From: Archangium violaceum
GTDB taxonomy: Bacteria; Myxococcota; Myxococcia; Myxococcales; Myxococcaceae
NCBI RefSeq assembly: GCF_016859125.1
Contig: NZ_CP069338.1
Location: forward strand, 4,775,501 to 4,839,500
Reading direction: 5' to 3'
DNA: 64,000 nt
Under the pieces are notes generated by a model. It ran no database searches. It was not told the origin of the DNA and saw nothing but the letters and a program-made list of their open reading frames with translations. This document shows positions 32,853 through 50,808 of the stretch, one piece after another. How positions within the stretch are numbered: the first letter of the stretch is position 1; each line of letters starts with the position of its first letter. Both the position numbers and the translations under genes were made by a program.

Positions 32853-34523
32853 ATGTTCACCAAGGGGCGTGGGCGCGACCTGGCCAGGAGCCCGGGCGTG
32901 GAGCAGGTGCGGCGGGTCCCTCCGGACGTCGCACTCCAGGCCCTGCTCACGAGCACCGGAGCGGAGGTTGGCCCTGGGTTCTTCCGGACCCTCGTCCGGA
33001 GTCTGGCCGAGGTCTTCCGCGTCACCAGCGCCGTGGTGGGTGAGCGCAAGCCCGGTCAGGACAGCCTCCACCCACTCGCCATCTGGAGCCAGGGAGACTT
33101 TCGCGAGGAGCAGCCCCTGGCGTTGTCCGGCACCGCTTTCGAGCAGGTTCTCACCCAGGGGGTCTTTCACTGCCCGGAGGTCGAGCCCTCGCGCTTCCCC
33201 GAGGACGGGTGGCTTCGCCAGCTCGGCCCGAGCGGGTTGCTGGGCATGGCCCTGAGGAGCTCGCGGGGGGAGGTGCTCGGCGTGCTGGCCCTCCTTCATG
33301 ACGCGCCGCTCGAGGTGGGCTCGCTGGACGTCGCGCTCCTGGGTGCCTTCGCCTCGCGCCTGGCCGCGGAGCTGGAGCGCCTCCAGGCACGAGCCGGGAT
33401 GGAGCAGGCGCGGGACTTCCTGCGCAAGGTCCTCGACTCCGTTCAGGATCCCCTCTTCGTGAAGGACCGCGCGCATCGGTGGATCATCGCGAACGACGCG
33501 TTCTGCCGCTTCATGAACCACCGCGAGGAGGAGCTGCTCGGCAAGTCCGATTACGACTTCGTTCCCGCCCATGAAGCGGATGTCTTCTGGCGTCAGGACG
33601 AGCTGGTCTTCGGCACCGGGCAGCCCAACGAGAACGAGGAGTCCATCACGGATAGTGCCGGGCTCACCCATACACTCGTCACCAAGAAGGCCGTCTTCAC
33701 CGGCGCGGACGGGCAGCCCTACCTCGTCGCCGTCATCCGCGACATCACCGAGTACACGCGCCTGGAGACGCAGCTGCGGCTGGCGGACCGGCTGGTGACG
33801 GTGGGGACGATGGCCTCCGGAATCGCGCACGAAATCAACAACCCGATGGCCTACGTCAGCGCCAACCTCTCGTTCCTGCGCGAGCAGCTATCGCAGGAGG
33901 ATGTGACGGCGCTGGACCTCGTCGAGCTGCGCGAGGTGGTGGCCGAGGCGCTCGAGGGCGCCGGGCGGGTCCGTGCCATCGTCGAGGATCTGAAGGGCTT
34001 CACGCGCTCGGACGAGAAGCGTTTTGGTCCAGTGGAGCTTCCGCAGGTCATCGATGGCGCGCAGCGGCTGGTGCGCCACCAGCTGCAGAACCACGCCCGC
34101 CTGGTGCACGCGCTGGAGCCGGTGCCGCCCGTCTTCGGCAACGCGGCGCGCCTGGGCCAGGTGCTGGTGAACCTGTTGGTGAACGCGCTGCAGTCCTTCT
34201 CCGTGCGCGACCCCGAGCGCAACCTCATCCGCGTCTCGTCCCGGACGAGTGGGGCGGCGCATGTGGTGCTGGAGGTGGAGGACAATGGACGGGGCATGGG
34301 GCCCGAGGTGCTGAAGCGCCTCTTCAGTCCCTTCTTCACCACCAAGCCGGTGGGAGAGGGCACGGGCCTGGGTCTGGCCATCAGCCACGCCATCATCCAA
34401 TCCATGGGCGGGCAGATCGAGGTGCGCAGCACGCCGGGACGGGGAAGCACCTTCCGGCTGGTGCTGCCAGTCTTCTCGGAAGGCGTGCCCCCCATTGCCC
34501 GAGGATCTCGAGAGGACCCATGA
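32853..34523 (+). CDS. GAF-PAS sensor histidine kinase
   Basis: 556 residues. Residues about 40-180 resemble a GAF domain, followed by a PAS domain (FLRKVLDSVQDPLFVKDRAH...DITEYTRLETQLR). The kinase core has H-box GIAHEINNPMAYV (His phosphoacceptor), N-box VLVNLLVNALQSF, and G boxes DNGRGMGPEVLKRLF and GEGTGLGLAISHAI. No membrane segment, so a cytoplasmic sensor. No response regulator adjoins it. Its stop overlaps by 4 bases the start of a truncated ORF (34520), so its downstream partner has probably been deleted. Confidence 0.88.
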   Translation: MFTKGRGRDLARSPGVEQVRRVPPDVALQALLTSTGAEVGPGFFRTLVRSLAEVFRVTSAVVGERKPGQDSLHPLAIWSQGDFREEQPLALSGTAFEQVLTQGVFHCPEVEPSRFPEDGWLRQLGPSGLLGMALRSSRGEVLGVLALLHDAPLEVGSLDVALLGAFASRLAAELERLQARAGMEQARDFLRKVLDSVQDPLFVKDRAHRWIIANDAFCRFMNHREEELLGKSDYDFVPAHEADVFWRQDELVFGTGQPNENEESITDSAGLTHTLVTKKAVFTGADGQPYLVAVIRDITEYTRLETQLRLADRLVTVGTMASGIAHEINNPMAYVSANLSFLREQLSQEDVTALDLVELREVVAEALEGAGRVRAIVEDLKGFTRSDEKRFGPVELPQVIDGAQRLVRHQLQNHARLVHALEPVPPVFGNAARLGQVLVNLLVNALQSFSVRDPERNLIRVSSRTSGAAHVVLEVEDNGRGMGPEVLKRLFSPFFTTKPVGEGTGLGLAISHAIIQSMGGQIEVRSTPGRGSTFRLVLPVFSEGVPPIARGSREDP

Positions 34524-37718: not shown

Positions 37719-39188
37719 ATGCGCTCCTCGTCGTCTCCGAGTCCCGCCGCGAATCCGGGTCCCGTCGCGAAGTCCGGACCTGGACTCGCTGTGCTCGAAA
37801 CCCTGCTCCGGAAGGACCTGGAGCGGCTCGAATACCCCAAGCGCTCCTGGGTGCTGCCCCGGCACCTGCGTGATGGGACGCCCCTCCTGGACGTGCTCAT
37901 CATCGGCGGCGGACAGAGCGGGCTGGCCGCGGCCTTCGGGCTGATGCGCGAGAAGGTGACGAACGTCCTCGTCGTGGACGACAGCGCGCCCGGGCTCGCG
38001 GGGCCATGGAAGACGTTCGCGCGCATGCACACGCTGCGCACGCCCAAGCACCTCACCGGCCCCGACCACAACATCCCCAACCTCGGCTTCCAGAGCTGGT
38101 ACGAGGCCCAGTACGGAGAGGCCGCCTGGCAGCAGTTGGGCCTCATCCCCAAGGAGCTGTGGGCGGACTACCTCAACTGGTACCGCCACTTCCTCGGCAT
38201 CCCCGTGCGCTGCCACACGCGCGCGGGCGCCATCTCCTGGCTCGACGAGGACCGCTGCTTCGCCGTCCCCGTGCAGCCCACGGACGGCGACGGTCAGCCG
38301 GGCACGCTCTTCGCGCGCAAGGTGGTGCTCGCCACGGGCATCGACGGCTCGGGCCGCTGGGAGACGCCCGCGATGGTGGCCCGCCTGCCGCGCGAGCTGT
38401 GGGCCCACACGCGGGATGACATCGACTTCGACGCCCTGCGAGGCAAGCGCATCGGCGTCCTGGGCGCGGGGGCCTCCGCCTTCGACAACGCCTCCGTGGC
38501 GCTGGAGCGCGGCGCCGCCGAGGTGCACCTCTTCTACCGCCGCAAGTCCCTGCCCACGGTGAACGCGTACCGCTGGGCCGAGTTCGTGGGCTTTCTCAAA
38601 CACCACGCGGACCTGCCGGACGCGGACCGCTGGCGATTCATCCGCCGCATCCTGGAGATGGGGCAGCTGCCGCCACACGACACGTACCACCGCGCGCGCG
38701 CCTTCCCGGGCTTCCACCTCCACGGGGAGAGCCCGTGGCGGGACGTGCGAGCCGAGGGAAGCACCGCCGTCGTCACCACGCCGCACGGCACGTACTCCTT
38801 CGACAAGCTCATCGTCGGCAGTGGCACCGTGACGGACCTGTCTCTGCGCCCGGAGCTGGCGAACTTCATCGGGGACATCGCGCTGTGGAAGGATCGCTAC
38901 ACGCCTCCGCCCGCCGAGGCGCACGAGGACCTGGCGCGCCACCCGTACCTGGGCCCCAACTTCGAGTTCCAGGAGAAGGTGCCCGGCCGCGCGCCGTACC
39001 TGGGTTCTCTCTTCAACTACACCTTTGGATGCCTGCTCTCGCTGGGCTTCGGCGGAGCGAGCATCTCCGGTATGAAGTACAGCCTGCCGAAGCTGGTGTC
39101 GGGCCTCACGCGGCAGCTCTACTGTGAGGACAAGGACGCGTACTTCGAGTCCCTGATGAGCTACGACGTCAAGGAGTTCGAGCCGTGA
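37719..39188 (+). CDS. FAD-dependent NAD(P)-binding oxidoreductase, candidate urate/purine step
   Basis: 489 residues. A Rossmann FAD motif (VLIIGGGQSGLAAAFGLMRE) and a second dinucleotide motif (IGVLGAGASAFDNASVAL) resemble flavin-containing monooxygenases (CzcO/TrkA group). It is not a known uricase family (no UaZ, PuuD membrane or class-A HpxO sequence is recognised). It overlaps allB by GTGA and heads a six-gene purine operon that otherwise lacks a urate-oxidising enzyme, so it may oxidise urate or another purine. That function is inference from context. Its N-terminal 30 residues are Ser/Pro-rich. Confidence 0.75.
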   Translation: MRSSSSPSPAANPGPVAKSGPGLAVLETLLRKDLERLEYPKRSWVLPRHLRDGTPLLDVLIIGGGQSGLAAAFGLMREKVTNVLVVDDSAPGLAGPWKTFARMHTLRTPKHLTGPDHNIPNLGFQSWYEAQYGEAAWQQLGLIPKELWADYLNWYRHFLGIPVRCHTRAGAISWLDEDRCFAVPVQPTDGDGQPGTLFARKVVLATGIDGSGRWETPAMVARLPRELWAHTRDDIDFDALRGKRIGVLGAGASAFDNASVALERGAAEVHLFYRRKSLPTVNAYRWAEFVGFLKHHADLPDADRWRFIRRILEMGQLPPHDTYHRARAFPGFHLHGESPWRDVRAEGSTAVVTTPHGTYSFDKLIVGSGTVTDLSLRPELANFIGDIALWKDRYTPPPAEAHEDLARHPYLGPNFEFQEKVPGRAPYLGSLFNYTFGCLLSLGFGGASISGMKYSLPKLVSGLTRQLYCEDKDAYFESLMSYDVKEFEP

Positions 39189-40546
39189 GCGGAGAGCAGG
39201 TGCTGCGCAGCAAGCGGGTCGTCACCGCGAGTGGCGTGCGCGAGGCGGCGGTGGTGATTCGGGAGGGCAGGGTCGCCGCGGTGCTGGCCCCGGCGGACGT
39301 GCCCGCGGGCCTGCCCGTGGAGGACCTGGGCGACAAGGTGCTCATGCCCGGCGTGGTGGATTGCCACGCGCACATCAACGAGCCCGGCCGCACCGAGTGG
39401 GAGGGCTTCGAGACGGCCACGCGCGCGGCGGCCGCGGGCGGTATCACCACCGTGGTGGACATGCCGCTCAACTCCATCCCCGCCACGACGACCCTGGCTG
39501 CGCTGCGCGAGAAGGCCGCCGCCGCCGAGGGCCGCTGCGCCATCGACCATGGCTTCTGGGGCGGCGTCATCCCCGGCAACGCGGGCGAGCTGGACGCCAT
39601 GATCGACGCGGGCGTGACGGGCTTCAAGTGCTTCCTCATCCACTCGGGCGTGGACGAGTTCCCCCACGTCACCCGCGAGGATCTGGCGCGCGCCATGCCC
39701 ATTCTCGCCCGGCGCGGCGTGCCCCTCATCGTCCACGCGGAGATGACGCCGGACGAGCGCCCGCCCCAGGGCGACACGCGCACCTACCGCAGCTACCTGG
39801 AGTCGCGCCCCCGCCGCTGGGAGGACGACGCCATCCGGATGATGATCGAGCTGTGCCGCGAGCACCGGGGCCGCGTGCACATCGTCCACCTGTCGTCCTC
39901 GGACGCGCTGCCGGACATCGCCGCCGCCCGCCGCGAGGGCCTGCCCTTCGGCGCGGAGACGTGCCCCCACTACCTCACCTTCGACGCGGAGCACATCCCG
40001 GACGGCGCCACCTGGCTCAAGTGCGCGCCGCCCATCCGCGAGGCGGAGAACCGCGAGAAGCTGTGGGCCGGGCTGGCGCGCGGGGAGATCGACATGGTGG
40101 TGTCGGACCACTCGCCCTGCACCCCGGGCCTCAAGCACCTGGACCGAGGGGACTTCGCCGCGGCGTGGGGCGGCATCGCCTCGCTCCAGTTCAGCCTGCC
40201 CGCCGTGTGGACGGGGATGCGCGAGCGCGGTCACGGGCTCGAGTCCCTGGTGCGGTGGATGTGCCAGAACCCGGCCCGGCTCATCGGCCTGGAGGGTGTG
40301 AAGGGCTCGCTCGTGCCCGGCGCGGACGCGGACCTGCTCGTCTTCGATCCGGAGGCCTCCTTCACGCCGGAGCCGTCACAGGTGCTCCACCGCCATTCGC
40401 TCACGCCCTACGCGGGCCGCTCGCTCACGGGCGTGGTGGAGCGCACGTACGTCCGGGGTCAGCGGGTCTACACGCGCGGCGAGCCCGCTCCGCGCCCGGT
40501 GGGCCGGTGGGTCCGCCGTCCCGTCACCACGCGTCCGGTGGCATAA
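39185..40546 (+). CDS. allB: Allantoinase
   Basis: 453 residues with GTG start overlapping the previous stop. Amidohydrolase metal motif VDCHAHINEPGRTEWEGF, the carboxylated Lys in TGFKCFLIHSG, further His ligands (IVHAEM, HIVHLSSSDALP) and the catalytic Asp (VVSDHSPC) are all present. It hydrolyses allantoin to allantoate. The C-terminal hydrophobic beta strands (SLTGVVERTYVRGQRVY) are typical of dihydropyrimidinase-like enzymes. It is followed by allantoicase 25 bp later. Confidence 0.93.
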   Translation: MSGEQVLRSKRVVTASGVREAAVVIREGRVAAVLAPADVPAGLPVEDLGDKVLMPGVVDCHAHINEPGRTEWEGFETATRAAAAGGITTVVDMPLNSIPATTTLAALREKAAAAEGRCAIDHGFWGGVIPGNAGELDAMIDAGVTGFKCFLIHSGVDEFPHVTREDLARAMPILARRGVPLIVHAEMTPDERPPQGDTRTYRSYLESRPRRWEDDAIRMMIELCREHRGRVHIVHLSSSDALPDIAAARREGLPFGAETCPHYLTFDAEHIPDGATWLKCAPPIREAENREKLWAGLARGEIDMVVSDHSPCTPGLKHLDRGDFAAAWGGIASLQFSLPAVWTGMRERGHGLESLVRWMCQNPARLIGLEGVKGSLVPGADADLLVFDPEASFTPEPSQVLHRHSLTPYAGRSLTGVVERTYVRGQRVYTRGEPAPRPVGRWVRRPVTTRPVA

Positions 40547-40571
40547 GTCTCTTCGAGGAGAAACTCCCAGC

Positions 40572-41588
40572 ATGCACACACCCGAGGAAGGCAAGGTGCG
40601 AGTCGCCTTCGCCGAGCTCATTGATCTCGCGGCCGAGAAGGTGGGGGGCCGCGCCCTCTATGCCAACGACGAGTTCTTCGCGCCCAAGGAGAACCTGCTC
40701 AAGCCGGGCCGCGGCGTCTTCATCCCGGACAAGTACACGGAGTTCGGCAAGTGGATGGACGGCTGGGAGACGCGGCGCAAGCGCGTCCCGGGCTACGACT
40801 GGTGCCTCATCCAGCTCGGCCTGCCCGGCGTCATCCGCGGCGTGAACGTGGACACCAACCACTTCATCGGCAACTTCCCCGAGTACGCCTCGGTGGACGC
40901 GCTCGAGGTCCAGGGCCAGCCCTCGCCCGAGGAGCTGACGAAGGCCACGTGGACGGAGATCGTCCCCCGGACGAAGCTGGCGGGCGGCACGCAGAACTAC
41001 CTCCCCGTCGCGAGCGAGCGGCGCTGGACGCACCTGCGCCTCAACATCTACCCGGACGGCGGCGTGGCGCGCTTCCGCGTCCACGGCGTGGTGAAGCCGG
41101 ATATGGAGAAGCTGCGCTCCGCGGACCTGGTGGACCTGGCCGCGGCGGAGAACGGTGGCATCGTCGTCACCTGCAACGACGCCTTCTTCGGGCCCAAGGA
41201 CAACCTCATCCTCCCCGGCCGCGCGGCCACCATGGGCGAGGGCTGGGAGACGCGGCGCAAGCGCGTGCCCGGCTTCGATTGGATTGTCGTGAAGCTGGCC
41301 GCCCCCGGCACCGTGCACCGCGTGGAGGTGGACACCCACCACTTCAAGGGCAACTACCCGGACATGTGCTCGCTGGAGGGGTGCTTCCTGAAGGAGGACA
41401 TCCTCGACTTCGCGAACGCGAAGGACATCGTCTGGCAGGAGATCCTCCCGCGCACGAAGCTCCAGGCGCACCACCGGCACTTCTACGAGGCCGAGCTGCA
41501 GGCCAGGGGGCCCTTCACCCACGTGCGGCTCAACATCTTCCCGGATGGCGGTATCAGCCGGCTGCGCGTGCACGGGCGGGCGGTGTGA
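40572..41588 (+). CDS. alc: Allantoicase
   Basis: 338 residues made of two similar halves, each with ANDEFFAPKENLL or CNDAFFGPKDNLI, then GWETRRKRVPG, VDTNHFIGNFPE or VDTHHFKGNYPD, and LRLNIYPDGGVARFRVHG or VRLNIFPDGGISRLRVHG. This duplicated jelly-roll layout is that of allantoicase, which splits allantoate to ureidoglycolate and urea. The stop overlaps the GTG of the next gene. It implies the window's pathway uses allantoicase rather than allantoate amidohydrolase. Confidence 0.95.
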   Translation: MHTPEEGKVRVAFAELIDLAAEKVGGRALYANDEFFAPKENLLKPGRGVFIPDKYTEFGKWMDGWETRRKRVPGYDWCLIQLGLPGVIRGVNVDTNHFIGNFPEYASVDALEVQGQPSPEELTKATWTEIVPRTKLAGGTQNYLPVASERRWTHLRLNIYPDGGVARFRVHGVVKPDMEKLRSADLVDLAAAENGGIVVTCNDAFFGPKDNLILPGRAATMGEGWETRRKRVPGFDWIVVKLAAPGTVHRVEVDTHHFKGNYPDMCSLEGCFLKEDILDFANAKDIVWQEILPRTKLQAHHRHFYEAELQARGPFTHVRLNIFPDGGISRLRVHGRAV

Positions 41589-42097
41589 GCAGGCTCGCGT
41601 GGCTCAACGGCCTCCCCATCGAGGAGGCCCAGGCGGAATTCCTGCGCTGCTGCGGCTCCACCCGCTGGGCGGAGGCCATGGCCCGCGCGCGACCCTTCGT
41701 CAGCGAGGCCGCTGTGTATACGGAGGCCGATTGGCTCTGGTCCCAGACGGGGCCGGATGACTGGCGTGAGGCGATGACGCACCACCCGCGCATTGGGGAC
41801 GTCTCCCAGCTGCGGGAGAAGTACAAGGCCACCGCTACCTGGTCCTCCCAGGAGCAGCGCGGCGTGCAGGAGGCGAGCGAGGAAGTGCTGCAAGGGCTCG
41901 CCGATGGCAACCGCGAGTACGAGGCGCGCTTCGGCTTCATCTTCCTGGTGTGCGCCACGGGCAAGAGCGCCGGGGAGATGCTGGCCTTGCTGCGCGAGCG
42001 CATGAACAACGAGCCGGAAGCGGAGCTGCGCATCGCGGCCGGCGAGCAGGCGAAGATCACCCGCATCCGATTGGAGAAGCTCCTCACCTCGCCATGA
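41585..42097 (+). CDS. uraD: OHCU decarboxylase
   Basis: 170 residues from GTG 41585, overlapping allantoicase by 4 bases. The signature HHPRIGD and the downstream block GIQEASEE-like (GVQEASEEVLQGLADGNREY) identify 2-oxo-4-hydroxy-4-carboxy-5-ureidoimidazoline decarboxylase, with E, H and R catalytic positions in place. It makes (S)-allantoin from the UraH product. The stop overlaps the ATG of uraH, so expression is coupled. Confidence 0.93.
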   Translation: MSRLAWLNGLPIEEAQAEFLRCCGSTRWAEAMARARPFVSEAAVYTEADWLWSQTGPDDWREAMTHHPRIGDVSQLREKYKATATWSSQEQRGVQEASEEVLQGLADGNREYEARFGFIFLVCATGKSAGEMLALLRERMNNEPEAELRIAAGEQAKITRIRLEKLLTSP

Positions 42098-42435
42098 GCA
42101 CCCTGTCCACCCACGTCCTCGACACGCAGTGGGGCCGCCCGGCGGCGGGCGTCCCCATCACCCTGGAGCAGCAGGCCGGCGACGGCTGGCGGGAGCTGGC
42201 GCGCGGCACGACCAACGCGGATGGCCGCGTGCGCGACTTCCTGCCCACGGGCACACGCCTGGAGGCGGGCATCTACCGGATGACGTTCCACACGGCGGAG
42301 TACTTCCGGGCCCACTCCGTCCGAGGCTTCTACCCGTACGTCTCGGTGGTCTTCGAGCTCTCCGCCGTGGACGAGCACTACCACGTGCCCCTGTTGCTGA
42401 GCCCCTTCGGCTATTCCACCTACCGGGGGAGCTGA
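42094..42435 (+). CDS. uraH: 5-hydroxyisourate hydrolase (transthyretin-like)
   Basis: 113 residues. STHVLDTQWGRPAAGVPI at the start (His) and the C-terminal YRGS motif are diagnostic of the transthyretin-related HIU hydrolase (PucM/UraH). It opens 5-hydroxyisourate to OHCU for the UraD gene directly upstream. ATG 42094 overlaps the uraD stop. No signal peptide, so cytoplasmic or peroxisome-free location. Confidence 0.93.
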   Translation: MSTLSTHVLDTQWGRPAAGVPITLEQQAGDGWRELARGTTNADGRVRDFLPTGTRLEAGIYRMTFHTAEYFRAHSVRGFYPYVSVVFELSAVDEHYHVPLLLSPFGYSTYRGS

Positions 42436-42446
42436 CCGACTCCTAT

Positions 42447-43790
42447 ATGAAGACGACCCTGAAGCCGGAGCGCATCTCCACCGCGCGCGAGGCGCTGAAG
42501 AAGGCCAATCAGGCCTACGCCCGCACGTACCCGGGCGAGTCCTCCCGGCGCCAGCCCGTGCACGTCGTGTACGGGGGCGCTCACCTGTTCAAATCGGACA
42601 CGGCCCGGAAGATGGGACAGCTGGCCCTGGCCTCGCTGCGGGAGTACGCGCCGGACGCGGAGACCCTCGCCGGGTGCCTGGGCGTGCCGGGCGGCGAGCT
42701 CGCGAAGCGCGTCCACGAGCGCGTGGAGGCGAAGCTCCAGCGTGAGGCGGTGGAGGACTTCCGCATCGACTTCGAGGACGGCTACGGCCACCGGCCGGAC
42801 GCGGAGGAGGACGGCCACGCGGTGTCCACCGCCGAGCAGGTGGCGAAGGGCATGACGGAGGGCACGCTGCCGCCCTTCATCGGCATCCGCATCAAGTCCT
42901 TCACCGAGGAGTTGTTCGACCGGAGCGCGCGCACGCTGGACCTCTTCGTGACCGCGCTGCTGGAGCGCACGGGCAACAAGCTGCCGGACAACTTCGTCGT
43001 CACCCTGCCGAAGATCACCTCGCCCGAGCAGGTGACGGCCCTGACTCGCATGCTGGAAGTGCTGGAGCAGGAGCGGGGTCTGCCAGCGGGTGCGCTGCGT
43101 CTGGAATTGATGGTGGAGACGCCCCAGTCCATCTTCGACCGGGAGGGGCGCCTCGCGCTGCCGGGGCTGGTGGCGGCGGCACGGGGGCGCTGCGTCGGGG
43201 CGCACCTGGGCGTGTATGACTATACGGCGGCGCTCGGCATCACCGCCGCGTACCAGAGCATGACGCACCCGGCGAGCAACCTGGTGCGAGGAATGATGCA
43301 GATCTCCCTGGCGGGCATGGACGTGGCGCTCTCGGATGGCGCGACCAACGTCATGCCGGTGGGCCCGCACAAGAAGGGCGCGAGCCCGCTGACGGAGGCG
43401 CAGCAGAAGGAGAACCGCGAGGTGGTGCATCGCGCGTGGAGGCTGGCGTACGAGCACACGCGCAACTCGCTGGAGCGGGGCTTCTATCAAGGGTGGGACC
43501 TGCACCCGGCCCAGATCCCGGTGCGCTACGCGGCGGTGTACGCCTTCTTCCTGGAAGGGCTGGGGGCGACGTCGGCCCGGCTGAAGTCCTTCATCGAGAA
43601 GGCGGCCCAGGCGACGCTGCTCGGGGACGTGTTCGATGACGCGGCGACGGGCCAGGGACTGCTGAACTACTTCCTGCGTGGCATTGCCTGTGGTGCGATC
43701 ACCGAGGAGGAGACGCGCGCCTCGGGGCTGACGTTGGAGGAACTGCGCAGCCGCTCGTTCCTGAAGATTGTCGAAGGCCGCCGGAAGTGA
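42447..43790 (+). CDS. DUF6986 aldolase/citrate-lyase-like protein
   Basis: 447 residues, 11 bp after uraH. It has HpcH/CitE-superfamily features: an acidic metal-site block (RIDFEDGYGHRPDAEEDGHA), LRLELMVETPQSIFD (Glu ligand) and GAHLGVYDYTAALGI (Asp). It resembles the plant and bacterial family called DUF6986. CitE-like TIM barrels condense or split C-C bonds, often with glyoxylate or acyl-CoA (as malate synthase does). The last gene of a pathway that must end in ureidoglycolate or glyoxylate, it may handle that product; this is inference. Its 3' end is duplicated, inverted, at 49049-49091. Confidence 0.75.
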   Translation: MKTTLKPERISTAREALKKANQAYARTYPGESSRRQPVHVVYGGAHLFKSDTARKMGQLALASLREYAPDAETLAGCLGVPGGELAKRVHERVEAKLQREAVEDFRIDFEDGYGHRPDAEEDGHAVSTAEQVAKGMTEGTLPPFIGIRIKSFTEELFDRSARTLDLFVTALLERTGNKLPDNFVVTLPKITSPEQVTALTRMLEVLEQERGLPAGALRLELMVETPQSIFDREGRLALPGLVAAARGRCVGAHLGVYDYTAALGITAAYQSMTHPASNLVRGMMQISLAGMDVALSDGATNVMPVGPHKKGASPLTEAQQKENREVVHRAWRLAYEHTRNSLERGFYQGWDLHPAQIPVRYAAVYAFFLEGLGATSARLKSFIEKAAQATLLGDVFDDAATGQGLLNYFLRGIACGAITEEETRASGLTLEELRSRSFLKIVEGRRK

Positions 43791-44417: not shown

Positions 44418-45212
44418 ATGTTCCAACCAGCGCGGTGGGCGCTCATGTCCAGCATGTTGCTGGCTGCCTGCGCGGGAGTCCCTGGGCGTGGTGCTCCGGA
44501 TCGCTACGCCCAGTCCTTCGACTCGGCGACGAGCGCCTGTCGGCAGAACCCGGCGCTCTGTGCACAAGTGGCTGGGGAGGAAACCGTGGTACCGCAGGCC
44601 GCGCGACGGCTCGCCGAGACTGGAGCCTCGGTCGCCGCGGTCGGGATGGCACTGAATGGGGACTTGAAGACTCAAATCGAGCAGGCCCTGCAGCAGTGTG
44701 CCGAGCATGCTCGTACCAAGGTGCTCAGTGATAAGCGTCAAGGGAAGATTCCCACGCAGGCTGAGTGTGACCAGCCGGCTCCTGGCATGGCCGTGAAACT
44801 GGCCATCTATCTCGGTGACGAAATGCACAAGGAGGCGTTCCAATGTACTGGGGAGAGACTGAGCCAGTTGATTCCAGGTCGATTCAGCCTGGGGCCGCGT
44901 TACCGCTACGACAGGATTACGAAGCAGACGACGTTCATCAGCGAAGAGGAGGCGCAATCTCTTCTGCGACAGTGGCGGGGCGATGAGCTGAAAGGCACGC
45001 TCAGGCCCGATGTCCTCATCCACTCGGGCAATCCGCTCCAGGTCAGGGCTGTCTATGATCTCAAATTTCCTTGCGCGGACGGAAGCAGGCCTACTCCGTG
45101 GACCCGCTACACAGAGGGGCCACATCAAGGCTTCGATCAGAAGCAGGTGTACTGGGACGCTCTGGGGGTGGAACCCTTTCGCATCGTACCGTGGCTGGGG
45201 ATTCTCAAATGA
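44418..45212 (+). CDS. Lipoprotein with PD-(D/E)XK nuclease-like C-terminus, candidate toxin
   Basis: 264 residues. A lipobox (SSMLLAAC) anchors it. The C-terminal block GTLRPDVLI...VRAVYDLKFPC has Asp198 and D214-L-K216, the spacing of a PD-(D/E)XK nuclease core, and a later FDQKQVYWDAL gives Gln and Tyr at the usual Q-x(n)-Y place. This pattern recurs in myxobacterial lipoproteins that precede DUF3396 immunity genes. The stop overlaps the immunity gene ATG by 4 bases. A lipid-anchored toxin delivered between kin cells, as for Sit toxins, is proposed; the N-terminus (Cys-rich, about 20-170) is not recognised. Confidence 0.6.
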   Translation: MFQPARWALMSSMLLAACAGVPGRGAPDRYAQSFDSATSACRQNPALCAQVAGEETVVPQAARRLAETGASVAAVGMALNGDLKTQIEQALQQCAEHARTKVLSDKRQGKIPTQAECDQPAPGMAVKLAIYLGDEMHKEAFQCTGERLSQLIPGRFSLGPRYRYDRITKQTTFISEEEAQSLLRQWRGDELKGTLRPDVLIHSGNPLQVRAVYDLKFPCADGSRPTPWTRYTEGPHQGFDQKQVYWDALGVEPFRIVPWLGILK

Positions 45213-46120
45213 GTGAGCGCTACCCAAAAATTCGGATTCGCGCGCGGAACGGGGCCGTTTTGCTGCGAGAGGGAGTGAGCATCAGCTTCTACATGCGCCG
45301 CTCTCATCAAGACGTGGTGCACCGGGTGATGCAGTCCCTGGAGTCCTACCTTCGTGTGGTGGGCACGAAGGCGCTCGGCTGGTACGACGATGGAGAGGGC
45401 ACCTGGCGGGAGTTGGATGCGGTGGGGTGGGCGCATACCCGGCGTGAGTTGCTCGAGAAGCGCTGGCCCCTGGTGACCCTCCGCGATGCCCTCGACGGAG
45501 AACTCCGATACGGGTTTGACTATCGTGGCAAGGCGCTCGATGAGCCCCCGGCGGCGGACGAGCCGGGCGCCGTGAGCGCGGTGAGCTTCTGGCTACCGAC
45601 GGAGTTCTTGGAGGAGCACGGGCCGAATCACGTACGAGAGCTGGCCTTGGAACTGGCGGCCCCATTGCCCTTCTGCTCTGGCCACGCGGGTCTCTCCTTC
45701 ATCGGTGAATTTGATCTGCCAGGCGTTCTCCGTGAAATCCGCGAGCGATGCTTCCGCCACCCGGGCTTGGACCTCCCAGACCTGGGGGAGCACTCGTGGA
45801 AGGTCGGTACGAGGATACGGGCACCGCATTGGCTGACGTTCCTGGGCTTACCCGTGTTGGGAGAGGTGGGTGGCACGGAGGGGCTTCGCTCTCGCCTCTT
45901 TTCCGCGGAGACGACCGTTCAGGAGATGGAGGGCGGACGCGCGGTCGTGACTCTAGGGCCCTGGCCCGAGGCAGGGGACACCGAGCAGGGGCAGGTTCTC
46001 CCGTCCTATCGGGAGCTGGCGTGTTTGTTGGAGCCCTGGCTGTATCACGAGGAACGTGGCCGTAATCTCGATTTCACCCTTGAGGACGTGCGGCACTGGG
46101 ATCGGCGCTTCCTCGGCTGA
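45209..46120 (+). CDS. DUF3396 type VI/Sit-type immunity protein
   Basis: 303 residues, no signal peptide. It has the DUF3396 layout: PKIRIRARNGAVLLREGVSI, SFYMRRSHQDVVHRVMQSLE, VSFWLPTEFLEEHGPNHVRE, LPFCSGHAGLSFIGEFDLPG, and WLTFLGLPVLGEVGG. Members act as cognate immunity proteins (TsiV-like) to effectors. The ATG overlaps the lipoprotein stop, so toxin and immunity are co-translated. It would sit in the cytoplasm and block a nuclease that acts there. Confidence 0.8.
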   Translation: MSERYPKIRIRARNGAVLLREGVSISFYMRRSHQDVVHRVMQSLESYLRVVGTKALGWYDDGEGTWRELDAVGWAHTRRELLEKRWPLVTLRDALDGELRYGFDYRGKALDEPPAADEPGAVSAVSFWLPTEFLEEHGPNHVRELALELAAPLPFCSGHAGLSFIGEFDLPGVLREIRERCFRHPGLDLPDLGEHSWKVGTRIRAPHWLTFLGLPVLGEVGGTEGLRSRLFSAETTVQEMEGGRAVVTLGPWPEAGDTEQGQVLPSYRELACLLEPWLYHEERGRNLDFTLEDVRHWDRRFLG

Positions 46121-46647: not shown

Positions 46648-48069
46648 GTGAGGGCGTGGCGACGGCCAGGAGTCGGAAGGGCCCGTACTACCGATGAAGC
46701 GGGTAACGACCGTGGAGGGAAGGGGCCCTGGTTCAGGGTGCTTCGTGAGGAGTGGACGCAGCGGGAGATTGGCGTGAGCCTGACAACCCCTACAAAGCTC
46801 GAAGAGCTCCGAGCGAAGCTGTACGCGAAGGCCAAGGCGGAGCCGACGTTCCGGTTCTACGCGCTGTACGACAAGCTCCATCGGTGGGATGTCCTGACGG
46901 AGGCGCTCAGGCAGTCGAAGCAGAAGAAGGGCGCCGCAGGAGTGGACGGACAGACCTTCGAGCAGCTCGAGGCGTACGGCGAGGAGCGCTGGCTCGAGGA
47001 GGTGCAGCGAGAGCTGCAAGGGAAGACGTATCGGCCCCAGCCAGTACGGAGGGTGCTGATACCCAAGCCAGGAGGAGGCGAGCGGCCACTGGGCATACCC
47101 ACGAGCAAGGAGCGGGTGGTCCAGACGGCGGCGAAGCTCATCCTGGAGCCCATCTTCGAGGCCGACTTGAGCGAGGCTGCATACGGGTACCGACCCGGAC
47201 GCAGTGCGGTCGATGCGGTCCAAGAGGTCCATCAGAAGCTGAAGCGGGGGCGGACCCAAGTGGTGGATGCGGCTCTCTCGAAGTACTTCGACACGATTCC
47301 CCACGCGGAGCTGATGAAGAGCGTCGCGAGGAGGGGTGCGGACAAGGCGGTGCTGCATCTGGTGAAGATGTGGCTGAAGGTGCCAGTGGAAGAGAGGGAC
47401 GAGCAAGGACGCCCGAGGTACAGCGGAGGCAAGCGCTCGAAGCAGGGGACACCGCAGGGGGGTGTCATCTCACCGCTGCTGGCGAACATCTACATCAACC
47501 GGCTGCTGAAGGTGTTCGCCAAGAGCGAGCTGATGAAGAGGAGCGGAGCGAAAATCGTCAACTACGCCGATGACTTCGTGGTGGTAGCCCGCAGGGGCGC
47601 CGCGGAGGTGTTGGTGCAGGTGAAGCGCTGGCTCGATGGGATGAAGCTGACGCTCAACGAGACGAAGACGAGCATTCGCGATGCGCGGAAGGAGCACTTC
47701 CGCTTTCTCGGGTACGAGCTGGGGCCACTGGTCTACAAGAAGACCGGCCAGAAGTACCTGGGAGCCCGACCTTCGAAGAAGGCGATGGAGCACGCCCGAG
47801 AGGAAGTGAGCCGAATCCTCCGACGAGGCAGGACGGAGCGCTGGGAGGAGATAGCGGGCGAGCTCAACCGGTTCCTGCGAGGGTGGGCGACGTACTTCGT
47901 CTACGACTCGCCGGTGCACGCGTTCAACGTGCTGGACTGGCACGTGACCGAACGGGTGAGGAACTTCCTGAGCAGGAGGCACAAGGTGGCGCGAGCAACG
48001 TCACGCTTCAAGTACAACGAGGTGCACCGGAGCCTCGGAGTGCTGGAGGTACGTGCACTCCTGCGCTGA
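46648..48069 (+). CDS. ltrA: Group II intron reverse transcriptase/maturase with mutated motif A
   Basis: 473 residues from GTG 46648; GTG 46774 (V-S-L-T-T-P) is an alternative start closer to the first conserved block. RT blocks are clear: LIPKPGGGERPLGIPT, AAYGYRPGRSAVDAV, GTPQGGVISPLLANIYINR and YADDFVVVAR (the YADD box intact). Motif A reads VVDAALSKYFDTIPHAEL, whereas this family has DADLSKYFDTIP; the catalytic Asp is replaced by Ala209 (GCT at 47272-47274). The thumb/maturase X region (FLRGWATYFVYDSPVHAFN...) is present, no En domain. It could still splice, but DNA synthesis should be lost. Confidence 0.85.
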   Translation: MRAWRRPGVGRARTTDEAGNDRGGKGPWFRVLREEWTQREIGVSLTTPTKLEELRAKLYAKAKAEPTFRFYALYDKLHRWDVLTEALRQSKQKKGAAGVDGQTFEQLEAYGEERWLEEVQRELQGKTYRPQPVRRVLIPKPGGGERPLGIPTSKERVVQTAAKLILEPIFEADLSEAAYGYRPGRSAVDAVQEVHQKLKRGRTQVVDAALSKYFDTIPHAELMKSVARRGADKAVLHLVKMWLKVPVEERDEQGRPRYSGGKRSKQGTPQGGVISPLLANIYINRLLKVFAKSELMKRSGAKIVNYADDFVVVARRGAAEVLVQVKRWLDGMKLTLNETKTSIRDARKEHFRFLGYELGPLVYKKTGQKYLGARPSKKAMEHAREEVSRILRRGRTERWEEIAGELNRFLRGWATYFVYDSPVHAFNVLDWHVTERVRNFLSRRHKVARATSRFKYNEVHRSLGVLEVRALLR

Positions 48070-49414: not shown

Positions 49415-50677
49415 TTAACGTTCCTTTGGAGGAATCCAGTCGGTATCCAGTTCCTTGGCCCCTTTCTCGCGGTTGCAAGTTCGGCAGGAGGGTGCCAGAT
49501 TCTCGGATGAAGAGGGTCCACCTTTGCTGTACGGCTTTCGATGATCCGCCTCATAGGATTTCGACTGCCCCGATTCTCGCGTCAGCTCCTCGTCGCAGTA
49601 CTCACAACGAGTTCGGCCTGTTGCATCCTGGCTCTTTTCGTAGGCCGCGTCGCGGTCTGCCTTACTGAACCGACGCGGCCTCCCTGTATCCGCGGTCATG
49701 GCTACTGCACCCGGAGCCAGGGTCAGGGTCAAACTCTCGGCGGATACGGAGACCGTCTCCACTTCCCCAACCGCCGCGAGACGGATACCCACCTGCGTCT
49801 CCGCCTGTGCTTCCGCCTGCACCGCACGGGGAAACGTCGGCACCTTTGCGGCCAGCCCCGGTGCCGTGTTGCCGATGGCAGTCAGGGCCAGCACGGCGAA
49901 GGCTCGCGCCGCGTTGCGACCCATGATCTTGCCGTACCGCTCGCCCGCCTCGCGCAGTTCGCTGAACGTGGTGGCCCGGTCCGCCTCGACCATCAACCGC
50001 TTGAAACCCAGGATGAGACCCCAGAAGGTGTCCACGCCCACATAGGCAATGAGCGTGGCGGTCATCACGGCGGCGAGGCCCTTGGAGACTGTCACGTCGG
50101 GAATGGTGAGGAGGAGCATGTACGTGGTCCACGTCCAGAGCACCGCAGCCACCATGGCGTGTGGGTCAGCCATGTCCCTGAAGGCCTCGAGCATCTCCTC
50201 CAGCACGGCGCCCTTGGCGAGGGCCATGGCCAGGGCGAAACGACCATCTCCGTTGACGATGGGGCTTTCCTCCAGCAGGCGCAGGCAATCTCCGGGCCTA
50301 CCAGTGCGCTCACACCAGCGCAGATACGCGCGCGTCAACTCGACCTCCGCCGCCGTTGGCTCTCCCTCCAGGTGCTCGCTCGACTCGAGCGGAGTGACGC
50401 GGCGGCCGCGTATCTCATACGTGTACGAACCACTCCGAGCATCGACCTCGAACAGTCGCCGGGCGGCTTCCTGGGGCTGAGCGGGAGGCCGCACCTCCCG
50501 AGCCAACTCCGACACGGCCACCTCGAACTCGCTGTCGCCCATTGCCACGGCCTTGGCACTGGAACGCGGGGTGAAGACGATGATGTTGGTTCGGCCCGTG
50601 TCCAGGCGTACGACCCGAGAGGAAGAGCCACACCCAGCGAGGAGAACCAGCACCACGGCCGTGCAGCACAGCTTCAT
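49415..50677 (-). CDS. SitA5-like polymorphic toxin lipoprotein with HNH nuclease domain
   Basis: 420 residues from ATG 50677, with AGGAGG just upstream. Lipobox VLLAGC. The body (SSSRVVRLDTGRTNIIVFTP...AREVRPPAQPQEAARRLFEV, and LTRAYLRWCERTGRPGDCLR) matches what I recall of the SitA5 family of Myxococcus outer-membrane-exchange toxins, including hydrophobic helices (VLWTWTTYMLLLTIPDVTV; GLAAVMTATLIAYVGVDTFWG). The C-terminus is a CxxC-type HNH nuclease (CEYCDEEL...EADHRKPYSKGG...ENLAPSCRTCNREKGAKEL). Known biology: SitA lipoproteins pass between kin cells by TraA/B-dependent exchange and kill cells lacking SitI. No SitB gene is next to it. Confidence 0.78.
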   Translation of the reverse strand: MKLCCTAVVLVLLAGCGSSSRVVRLDTGRTNIIVFTPRSSAKAVAMGDSEFEVAVSELAREVRPPAQPQEAARRLFEVDARSGSYTYEIRGRRVTPLESSEHLEGEPTAAEVELTRAYLRWCERTGRPGDCLRLLEESPIVNGDGRFALAMALAKGAVLEEMLEAFRDMADPHAMVAAVLWTWTTYMLLLTIPDVTVSKGLAAVMTATLIAYVGVDTFWGLILGFKRLMVEADRATTFSELREAGERYGKIMGRNAARAFAVLALTAIGNTAPGLAAKVPTFPRAVQAEAQAETQVGIRLAAVGEVETVSVSAESLTLTLAPGAVAMTADTGRPRRFSKADRDAAYEKSQDATGRTRCEYCDEELTRESGQSKSYEADHRKPYSKGGPSSSENLAPSCRTCNREKGAKELDTDWIPPKER

Positions 50678-50808
50678 GGGGACTCCTCCTGGTCCTGGCC
50701 CCTGCTTCCGTGAGAACCCACTGACGGGCTGGCGGCTGGCAGGGTGGCGTATCGGCGAAGCTGAGCATAGTGGCTTGCCGGGACGTGCGGTCACGGTTCG
50801 CTCTGCAC

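Follow-up and report, generated by a model that had tools for sequence, protein, structure and literature searches.

How does the purine operon of the soil myxobacterium Archangium violaceum begin the breakdown of urate, and what is the role of its last gene? The operon lies in a window of 64,000 nucleotides (contig NZ_CP069338.1, forward-strand positions 4,775,501 to 4,839,500; positions below are those of the window), where six plus-strand frames run head to tail from 37719 to 43790 with junctions, in order, of -4, +25, -4, -4 and +11 bp. The first-pass annotation had described a tight six-gene operon in which allantoinase (AllB), allantoicase (Alc), OHCU decarboxylase (UraD) and 5-hydroxyisourate hydrolase (UraH) are clear and no urate oxidase or ureidoglycolate lyase is recognised, the candidates to fill these gaps being the two end genes, which encode an FMO-like flavoprotein (FMO) and a DUF6986 protein. 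This description was borne out: no junction exceeds 25 bp, each of the four inner proteins scores above its curated cut-off (Table 1), profile scans of the six proteins recognised neither a urate oxidase nor an AllA domain, and both end families are recurrently tied to purine genes. The first gene very probably encodes a member of the HpyO group of FAD-dependent urate hydroxylases, i.e. a new member of a known though seldom recognised enzyme kind. For the last gene we propose, with about even confidence, a Mg-dependent and purine-dedicated enzyme that would condense glyoxylate with an acyl-CoA in the manner of malate synthase.

A contig scan found at least 577 relatives of the DUF6986 protein, of which the best 80 loci were analysed. 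At least one of AllB, Alc, UraD, UraH and UGHY was encoded near DUF6986 in 57 of the 80 and in 41 of the 49 loci with at least 5 kb fetched on both sides, and this linkage spans more than ten phylum labels. A urate oxidase lay near DUF6986 in 43 of the 80 loci (PuuD in 31, Uox in 12); AllA was found near it in none, and FMO over 50 bits in none, and hence DUF6986 has no tie to FMO beyond the Myxococcaceae. The UGHY route replaces Alc at the loci of Hymenobacter and Niastella, DUF6986 overlaps the UGHY gene in Tsukamurella and adjoins Alc in Nocardia; Paenarthrobacter has a nucleobase symporter beside DUF6986 and none of the scored purine genes, and Nonomuraea likewise has none of the scored genes. 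Other recurrent neighbours were a deaminase (7 loci), an aldehyde dehydrogenase (5) and a 561-aa family (four), and two recurrent families without a match were discarded as antisense shadows of PuuD and Uox, which they overlapped in 9/9 and 5/5 members. On a 102-row tree, no fewer than 20 changes are required by the labels for DUF6986 in a purine cluster (67 rows) and standing alone (35 rows, of which some come from short contigs); around the stand-alone gene at two Myxococcaceae loci, nine neighbour frames comprised an M1 peptidase, an LEA_2 protein, an alpha/beta hydrolase and six without a match. The family has at least 8000 relatives (8000/8000 scored candidates). Its superfamily is known, while the purine role and reaction proposed here are new relative to the open-licence PMC literature searched, in which no paper naming DUF6986, or giving it a purine role or reaction, was found.

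The predicted fold of DUF6986 is the TIM barrel of malyl-CoA lyases and malate synthases, and its top VIA-align row was 4l9y, a structure with Mg, glyoxylate and propionyl-CoA (15% identity; 11-19% across the 50 listed structure rows). A relaxed scan of DUF6986 sequences matched HpcH_HpaI (PF03328) in 11/11 at E <=1 and PF01274 in 8/11, some relatives lying weakly over the PF01274 cut-off (up to 34.2 bits); the AllA domain (PF04115) gave no match in DUF6986. Residues D108, E110, D111, R148, E224, D258 and D397 are invariant in all 132 rows of an alignment that holds the window twice and some genomes twice. In local hhalign comparisons the first six aligned to a CoA-ester lyase, and for E224 and D258 the alignment extended to malyl-CoA lyases and malate synthase G; DUF6986 counterparts were found for Asp42, Glu44, Asp45, Arg76, Glu141 and Asp168 of the R. 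sphaeroides malyl-CoA lyase. D397, left unaligned by hhalign, fits the lid Asp (Asp299) by its D-x-(A/P) motif and spacing. Passages of PMC3832036 describe this catalytic set as conserved across CitE-like enzymes and malate synthases, and give the residue before the metal Asp as a bulky Leu/Trp in malate synthases G/A and as Ala in malyl-CoA lyases; the residue before D258 in DUF6986 is Tyr in 131/132 rows.

By its modelled fold and catalytic set, DUF6986 is thus assigned to the superfamily of CitE-like enzymes and malate synthases. The features that it has in common with the malyl-CoA lyase of 4l9y and with CitE-like enzymes are the predicted fold, the ligands of the metal, the Asp/Glu/Asp of the second shell, the Arg and, judged by motif and spacing, probably the lid Asp. 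It differs from them by a Tyr that takes the place of Ala ahead of the metal Asp, by a Lys at a site that is Asn in the compared lyase, and by its length of 447 aa with a conserved N-terminal motif of its own. With malate synthases A and G it shares the predicted fold, the catalytic set and the bulky residue before the metal Asp, whereas the window protein falls under the PF01274 cut-off and, among 51 genomes, DUF6986 never accompanies isocitrate lyase where a canonical malate synthase is lacking (0/51), leaving a role as the malate synthase of the glyoxylate shunt unsupported.

The rest of the window genome (G000, one contig of 12.68 Mb) bears on both end genes. UaZ (PF01014) and PuuD (PF06181) had no match in it, HpxO not having been searched for. 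An AllA-family gene is present at G000:C1:8886653-8887138 (PF04115, 171.5 bits against a cut-off of 23), isolated, with a PLP-enzyme gene on one side and one for thymidylate kinase on the other, and its protein falls below the NCBI AllA cut-offs (best 143.3 against 160). The operon is therefore not the sole candidate for ureidoglycolate cleavage. A canonical malate synthase adjoins isocitrate lyase in the same genome. Hence the genome-wide gap that had been suspected holds for UaZ and PuuD and not for AllA; of the findings that the first-pass annotation had named as speaking against its proposal (AllA and an ordinary uricase at other sites of the genome, together with end families that are not repeatedly linked to purine genes), only the AllA-family gene was encountered. 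Its suggestion of a new ureidoglycolate- or glyoxylate-consuming enzyme at the last position keeps the support of the purine linkage and the malate-synthase-type fold, and is weakened by the AllA-family gene and the canonical malate synthase elsewhere.

According to the model that we favour, the operon would take urate by oxidative uricolysis as far as ureidoglycolate and supply an exit step further along the pathway. FMO would act on urate in the manner of HpyO, using FAD, NAD(P)H and O2 to form 5-hydroxyisourate; UraH and UraD would then yield allantoin, AllB allantoate, and Alc ureidoglycolate and urea. The AllA-family protein, whose gene lies outside the operon, may cleave ureidoglycolate to glyoxylate and urea, or ureidoglycolate may decay spontaneously. 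In DUF6986, a Mg2+ held by E224 and D258 would bind glyoxylate, D397 would deprotonate acetyl-CoA (or a close acyl-CoA) and R148 would steady the oxyanion, with malate or malyl-CoA as the product. DUF6986 would in this way be a malate-synthase-type enzyme dedicated to purine breakdown alongside the glyoxylate-shunt enzyme, much as E. coli has two malate synthases with separate roles, aceB and glcB.

Several observations weigh against glyoxylate condensation by DUF6986. The Foldseek top ten consists of two uncharacterised lyases, 3qqw and 3r4i; the window protein lies below the Pfam cut-offs (PF01274, 20.6 against 26.4; PF03328, 20.6 against 25); and K150 is invariant where the compared CoA-ester lyase has, by position, Asn. 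The distribution of canonical malate synthase (PF01274 >100 bits) also fits poorly. We picked 50 DUF6986 genomes from the 80 loci, favouring isolates and purine neighbours, and in 43 of them DUF6986 lies in a purine cluster. Full AllA was found in 0/43 of these genomes (two had weak matches of 58-61 bits), malate synthase was present in 16/43 and absent from 27/43, and so the step left open in all 43 is ureidoglycolate cleavage. Isocitrate lyase occurred in 20/50, all 20 with a canonical malate synthase as well, so that DUF6986 was not seen replacing malate synthase in the shunt (one further genome, L065, with PF01274 at 50.8 bits, is uncounted in the malate synthase tally). We also searched 193 Myxococcota genomes, 89 of which encode allantoicase. 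Malate synthase is present in 84 of these 89, including 8 of the 10 that have DUF6986 without AllA, where the missing item is therefore AllA and not malate synthase, and it is present in 16 of 18 genomes with DUF6986 and no Alc, which speaks against a simple substitute role.

Part of this evidence favours the chief rival, in which DUF6986 replaces AllA, to which it is not homologous, by splitting ureidoglycolate with release of urea. It would be a third kind of ureidoglycolate-cleaving enzyme, Mg2+-dependent and built on the malate synthase/malyl-CoA lyase barrel, an idea that we hold only tentatively and think rather unlikely. Ureidoglycolate, HO-CH(COO-)-NH-CO-NH2, is an aza-analogue of malyl-CoA, HO-CH(COO-)-CH2-CO-SCoA; cleavage of either would leave glyoxylate on the metal and release an anion stabilised by resonance. 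The Arg, metal and Asp of the malyl-CoA lyase machinery could on this view break a C-N bond in place of a C-C bond, although the better-known members of the superfamily act on CoA thioesters (passages of PMC3832036). Full AllA is found in 5/7 searched genomes with DUF6986 outside a cluster, against none of the 43 above. Among the 89 allantoicase genomes, AllA lies near allantoicase in 21 and DUF6986 in 23, and the two are never there together (0/89; Fisher p 7e-4, kinship uncorrected); malate synthase is present in 10/10 of those with AllA but no strong DUF6986, much as in the 8/10 with DUF6986 only. Within the window's own genus (g1), DUF6986 occupies the AllA slot, the order being FMO-AllB-Alc-UraD-UraH-DUF6986 in the window, G193 and G205 and PuuD-AllB-Alc-UraH-AllA in G219 and G227. 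Finally, DUF6986 accompanies both the Alc and the UGHY routes, which converge on ureidoglycolate, and on a Gordonia plasmid (L003 7510-9197) it lies directly upstream of a urease operon. AllA and DUF6986 thus share a slot in the purine clusters of related genomes but belong to unrelated families, AllA being nickel-dependent according to passages of PMC3793230. If DUF6986 were such a lyase, Bacteroidota, Acidobacteriota and other ureidoglycolate-making phyla without AllA would rely on it as their main enzyme for this cleavage, and it might also pass the bound glyoxylate on to acetyl-CoA.

Glyoxylate condensation is nevertheless preferred to ureidoglycolate cleavage in view of the coexistence of AllA with DUF6986, the 18 genomes without Alc, the fold and catalytic set, and a parallel in AllA-type clusters. 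At the level of whole genomes, 67 of the 89 have both AllA and DUF6986, 10 have AllA only, 10 have DUF6986 only and two have neither, and no exclusivity emerged at this level (Fisher p 0.80). Where DUF6986 is the one near Alc (23 genomes), AllA is kept elsewhere in 16, and where AllA is the one near Alc (21 genomes), DUF6986 is kept elsewhere in 11; coexistence of this kind suggests that the two are hardly interchangeable. Strong DUF6986 matches occur in 18 Myxococcota genomes without Alc or AllA (14 of them at least 90% complete), and none of the 18 has an allantoinase over the cut-off, while 3/3 positive controls pass. Where the alignment of 132 rows includes copies from such genomes, these too carry the invariant residues. 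The substrate is therefore not only purine-derived ureidoglycolate, and these genomes favour glyoxylate condensation over a ureidoglycolate lyase. AllA, unlike DUF6986, is always accompanied by Alc (77/77, leaving out a weak 40.7-bit match in G051), and ureidoglycolate is described in PMC3793230, which also presents a coupled assay for urea, as decaying spontaneously. DUF6986 has the predicted fold and the catalytic set of enzymes that join glyoxylate or pyruvate to acyl-CoA. In G138 and G156 a canonical malate synthase stands beside an AllA-type purine cluster, providing a parallel for a dedicated glyoxylate exit in such clusters.

A further alternative, which we consider improbable, is that DUF6986 catalyses some other C-C reaction of the superfamily, for example as an aldolase that joins glyoxylate to a 2-oxoacid or a longer acyl-CoA in glyoxylate detoxification. 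DUF6986 matches the listed structures in their shared fold only, at the low identities given above, it persists in genomes that lack allantoinase and allantoicase, and its gene in Gordonia shares 4 bp with that of a PaaI-type thioesterase. On the other side, if one follows the reasoning in passages of PMC3832036, a residue as bulky as Tyr ahead of the metal Asp makes larger acyl groups less likely, and a linkage to purine genes this strong points to a role specific to that route. The tie to uricolysis turns the family into a two-way question, glyoxylate consumption or ureidoglycolate cleavage, and either answer would fill a step of purine-nitrogen recycling in bacteria without AllA.

The first gene is less ambiguous. 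Besides matches over cut-off to PF13454, PF13738, PF07992 and PF13434, FMO has no PF01494 match at E <=0.001; its glycine-motif residues are invariant in 30 aligned rows, and structure prediction gives it the fold of NADPH-dependent flavin N-hydroxylases and FMOs. Over about 467 residues it is 44.0% identical to P0282 (HpyO), 46.7% to P0324 (HpyO) and 46.5% to P0244, the HpyO names being those of depositors rather than the outcome of assays and the characterised Xanthomonas protein itself standing outside the comparison. A protein search with the Sphingobium FMO found named HpyO proteins and no Xanthomonas name among the 120 matches listed. UraH adjoins FMO relatives in Priestia, Niveispirillum, Sphingobium and Novosphingobium, in Priestia together with UraD, and P0275 is a natural UraD-FMO fusion. 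One Mesorhizobium row falls inside the UraH-linked group without UraH or UraD, beside molybdenum-hydroxylase genes. HpyO is the FAD-dependent urate hydroxylase of Xanthomonas (Michiel et al, 2012, as cited in a passage of PMC4562309). The new urate hydroxylase family that the first-pass annotation had thought plausible is accordingly dropped: FMO falls in the HpyO group, and no new urate hydroxylase is needed. Like HpyO, FMO is an FAD and NAD(P)H-type flavoprotein that is linked to uraH/uraD and substitutes for other urate oxidases; it differs in heading an AllB-Alc-UraD-UraH operon in the Myxococcaceae examined. The same reaction (FAD, NAD(P)H, O2) is predicted for FMO as for HpxO, the Klebsiella FAD urate hydroxylase, which passages of PMC4562309 place in another hydroxylase family. 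The FMO function offered here would apply to proteins that many sources label merely CzcO-like flavoprotein. HpxO presumably belongs to PF01494, the family for which FMO gave no match.

Within the Myxococcota, FMO behaves as the counterpart of another urate oxidase. Among 20 stretches around DUF6986 or Alc that we selected, FMO is present in 8, always in the order FMO-AllB-Alc-UraD-UraH (8/8), and DUF6986 shares the stretch in 7 of these 8. Across the 193 genomes, FMO (E <=1e-60) was found in 49 and PuuD in 41 as a full-length and in 11 as a short protein, the UaZ search covering the window's own genome and not the other 192. The 89 allantoicase genomes divide into 49 with FMO and 39 with full PuuD, none with both and one with neither (G067, 82% complete), a mutual exclusion with Fisher p 1.5e-24, kinship uncorrected. 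Every FMO genome has allantoicase (49/49), and two full-PuuD genomes lack it. The exchange takes place within genera: in g1, FMO in G000, G193 and G205 stands against PuuD in G215, G219 and G227, and in g3, G072, G131, G135 and G141 stand against G197, G203 and G235. Two unrelated urate oxidases thus swap cleanly within one myxobacterial family. That FMO is instead some other hydroxylase or reductase, carried as a passenger in the operon, is very improbable: its nearest solved folds are amine N-hydroxylases, and the wider family has non-purine paralogues on Pantoea and Burkholderia plasmids, but those paralogues lie outside the group of UraH-linked FMOs (support 100/100, midpoint root), UraD is fused to FMO in P0275, and FMO and PuuD exclude one another.

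The PuuD-AllB-Alc-UraH-AllA cluster of the window's genus lies at L158 5736-15367 (G219) and on L172 (G227), with urease further along in G219; neither cluster gave a score for a separate UraD, and Alc has a longer frame in both. The short PuuD-like proteins (134-187 bits) occur in eleven Myxococcota genomes without allantoicase, e.g. G206, G195, G147 and G230, and the one in G206 is broken up and sits beside DUF6986.

Table 1. Genes of the purine operon, with window positions and profile scores
Feature	Position	Strand	Profile evidence
FMO-like flavoprotein, predicted FAD-dependent urate hydroxylase of the HpyO group, 489 aa	37719..39188	+	only general FAD/NAD(P)-binding matches over cut-off
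allB, allantoinase, 453 aa	39185..40546	+	TIGR03178 576.7 bits, cut-off 357.85
alc, allantoicase, 338 aa	40572..41588	+	TIGR02961 453.0 bits, cut-off 277.9
uraD, OHCU decarboxylase, 170 aa, GTG start	41585..42097	+	TIGR03180 185.0 bits, cut-off 139.4
uraH, 5-hydroxyisourate hydrolase, 113 aa	42094..42435	+	TIGR02962 152.9 bits, cut-off 87.45
DUF6986 protein, 447 aa, malate synthase/CitE-like TIM barrel, predicted glyoxylate-handling	42447..43790	+	PF22484 614.7 bits, cut-off 27

Other genes of the window lie on both sides of the operon. Upstream, the frame at 32853-34523 (+) encodes a GAF-PAS histidine kinase that resembles the Myxococcus EspA/EspC kinases and scores below their cut-offs. Downstream, after a frame without a family match, a protein of the TsiV-type immunity family is encoded at 45071-46120 (+; PF11876, 199.7 bits), followed about 3 kb from the operon by a group II intron reverse transcriptase/maturase at 46648-48069 (+; TIGR04416, 358.2 bits). 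The frame at 49418-50794 (-) matches the SitA5-family polymorphic toxin domain (NF050093, 358.7 bits) and carries a C-terminal HNH domain.

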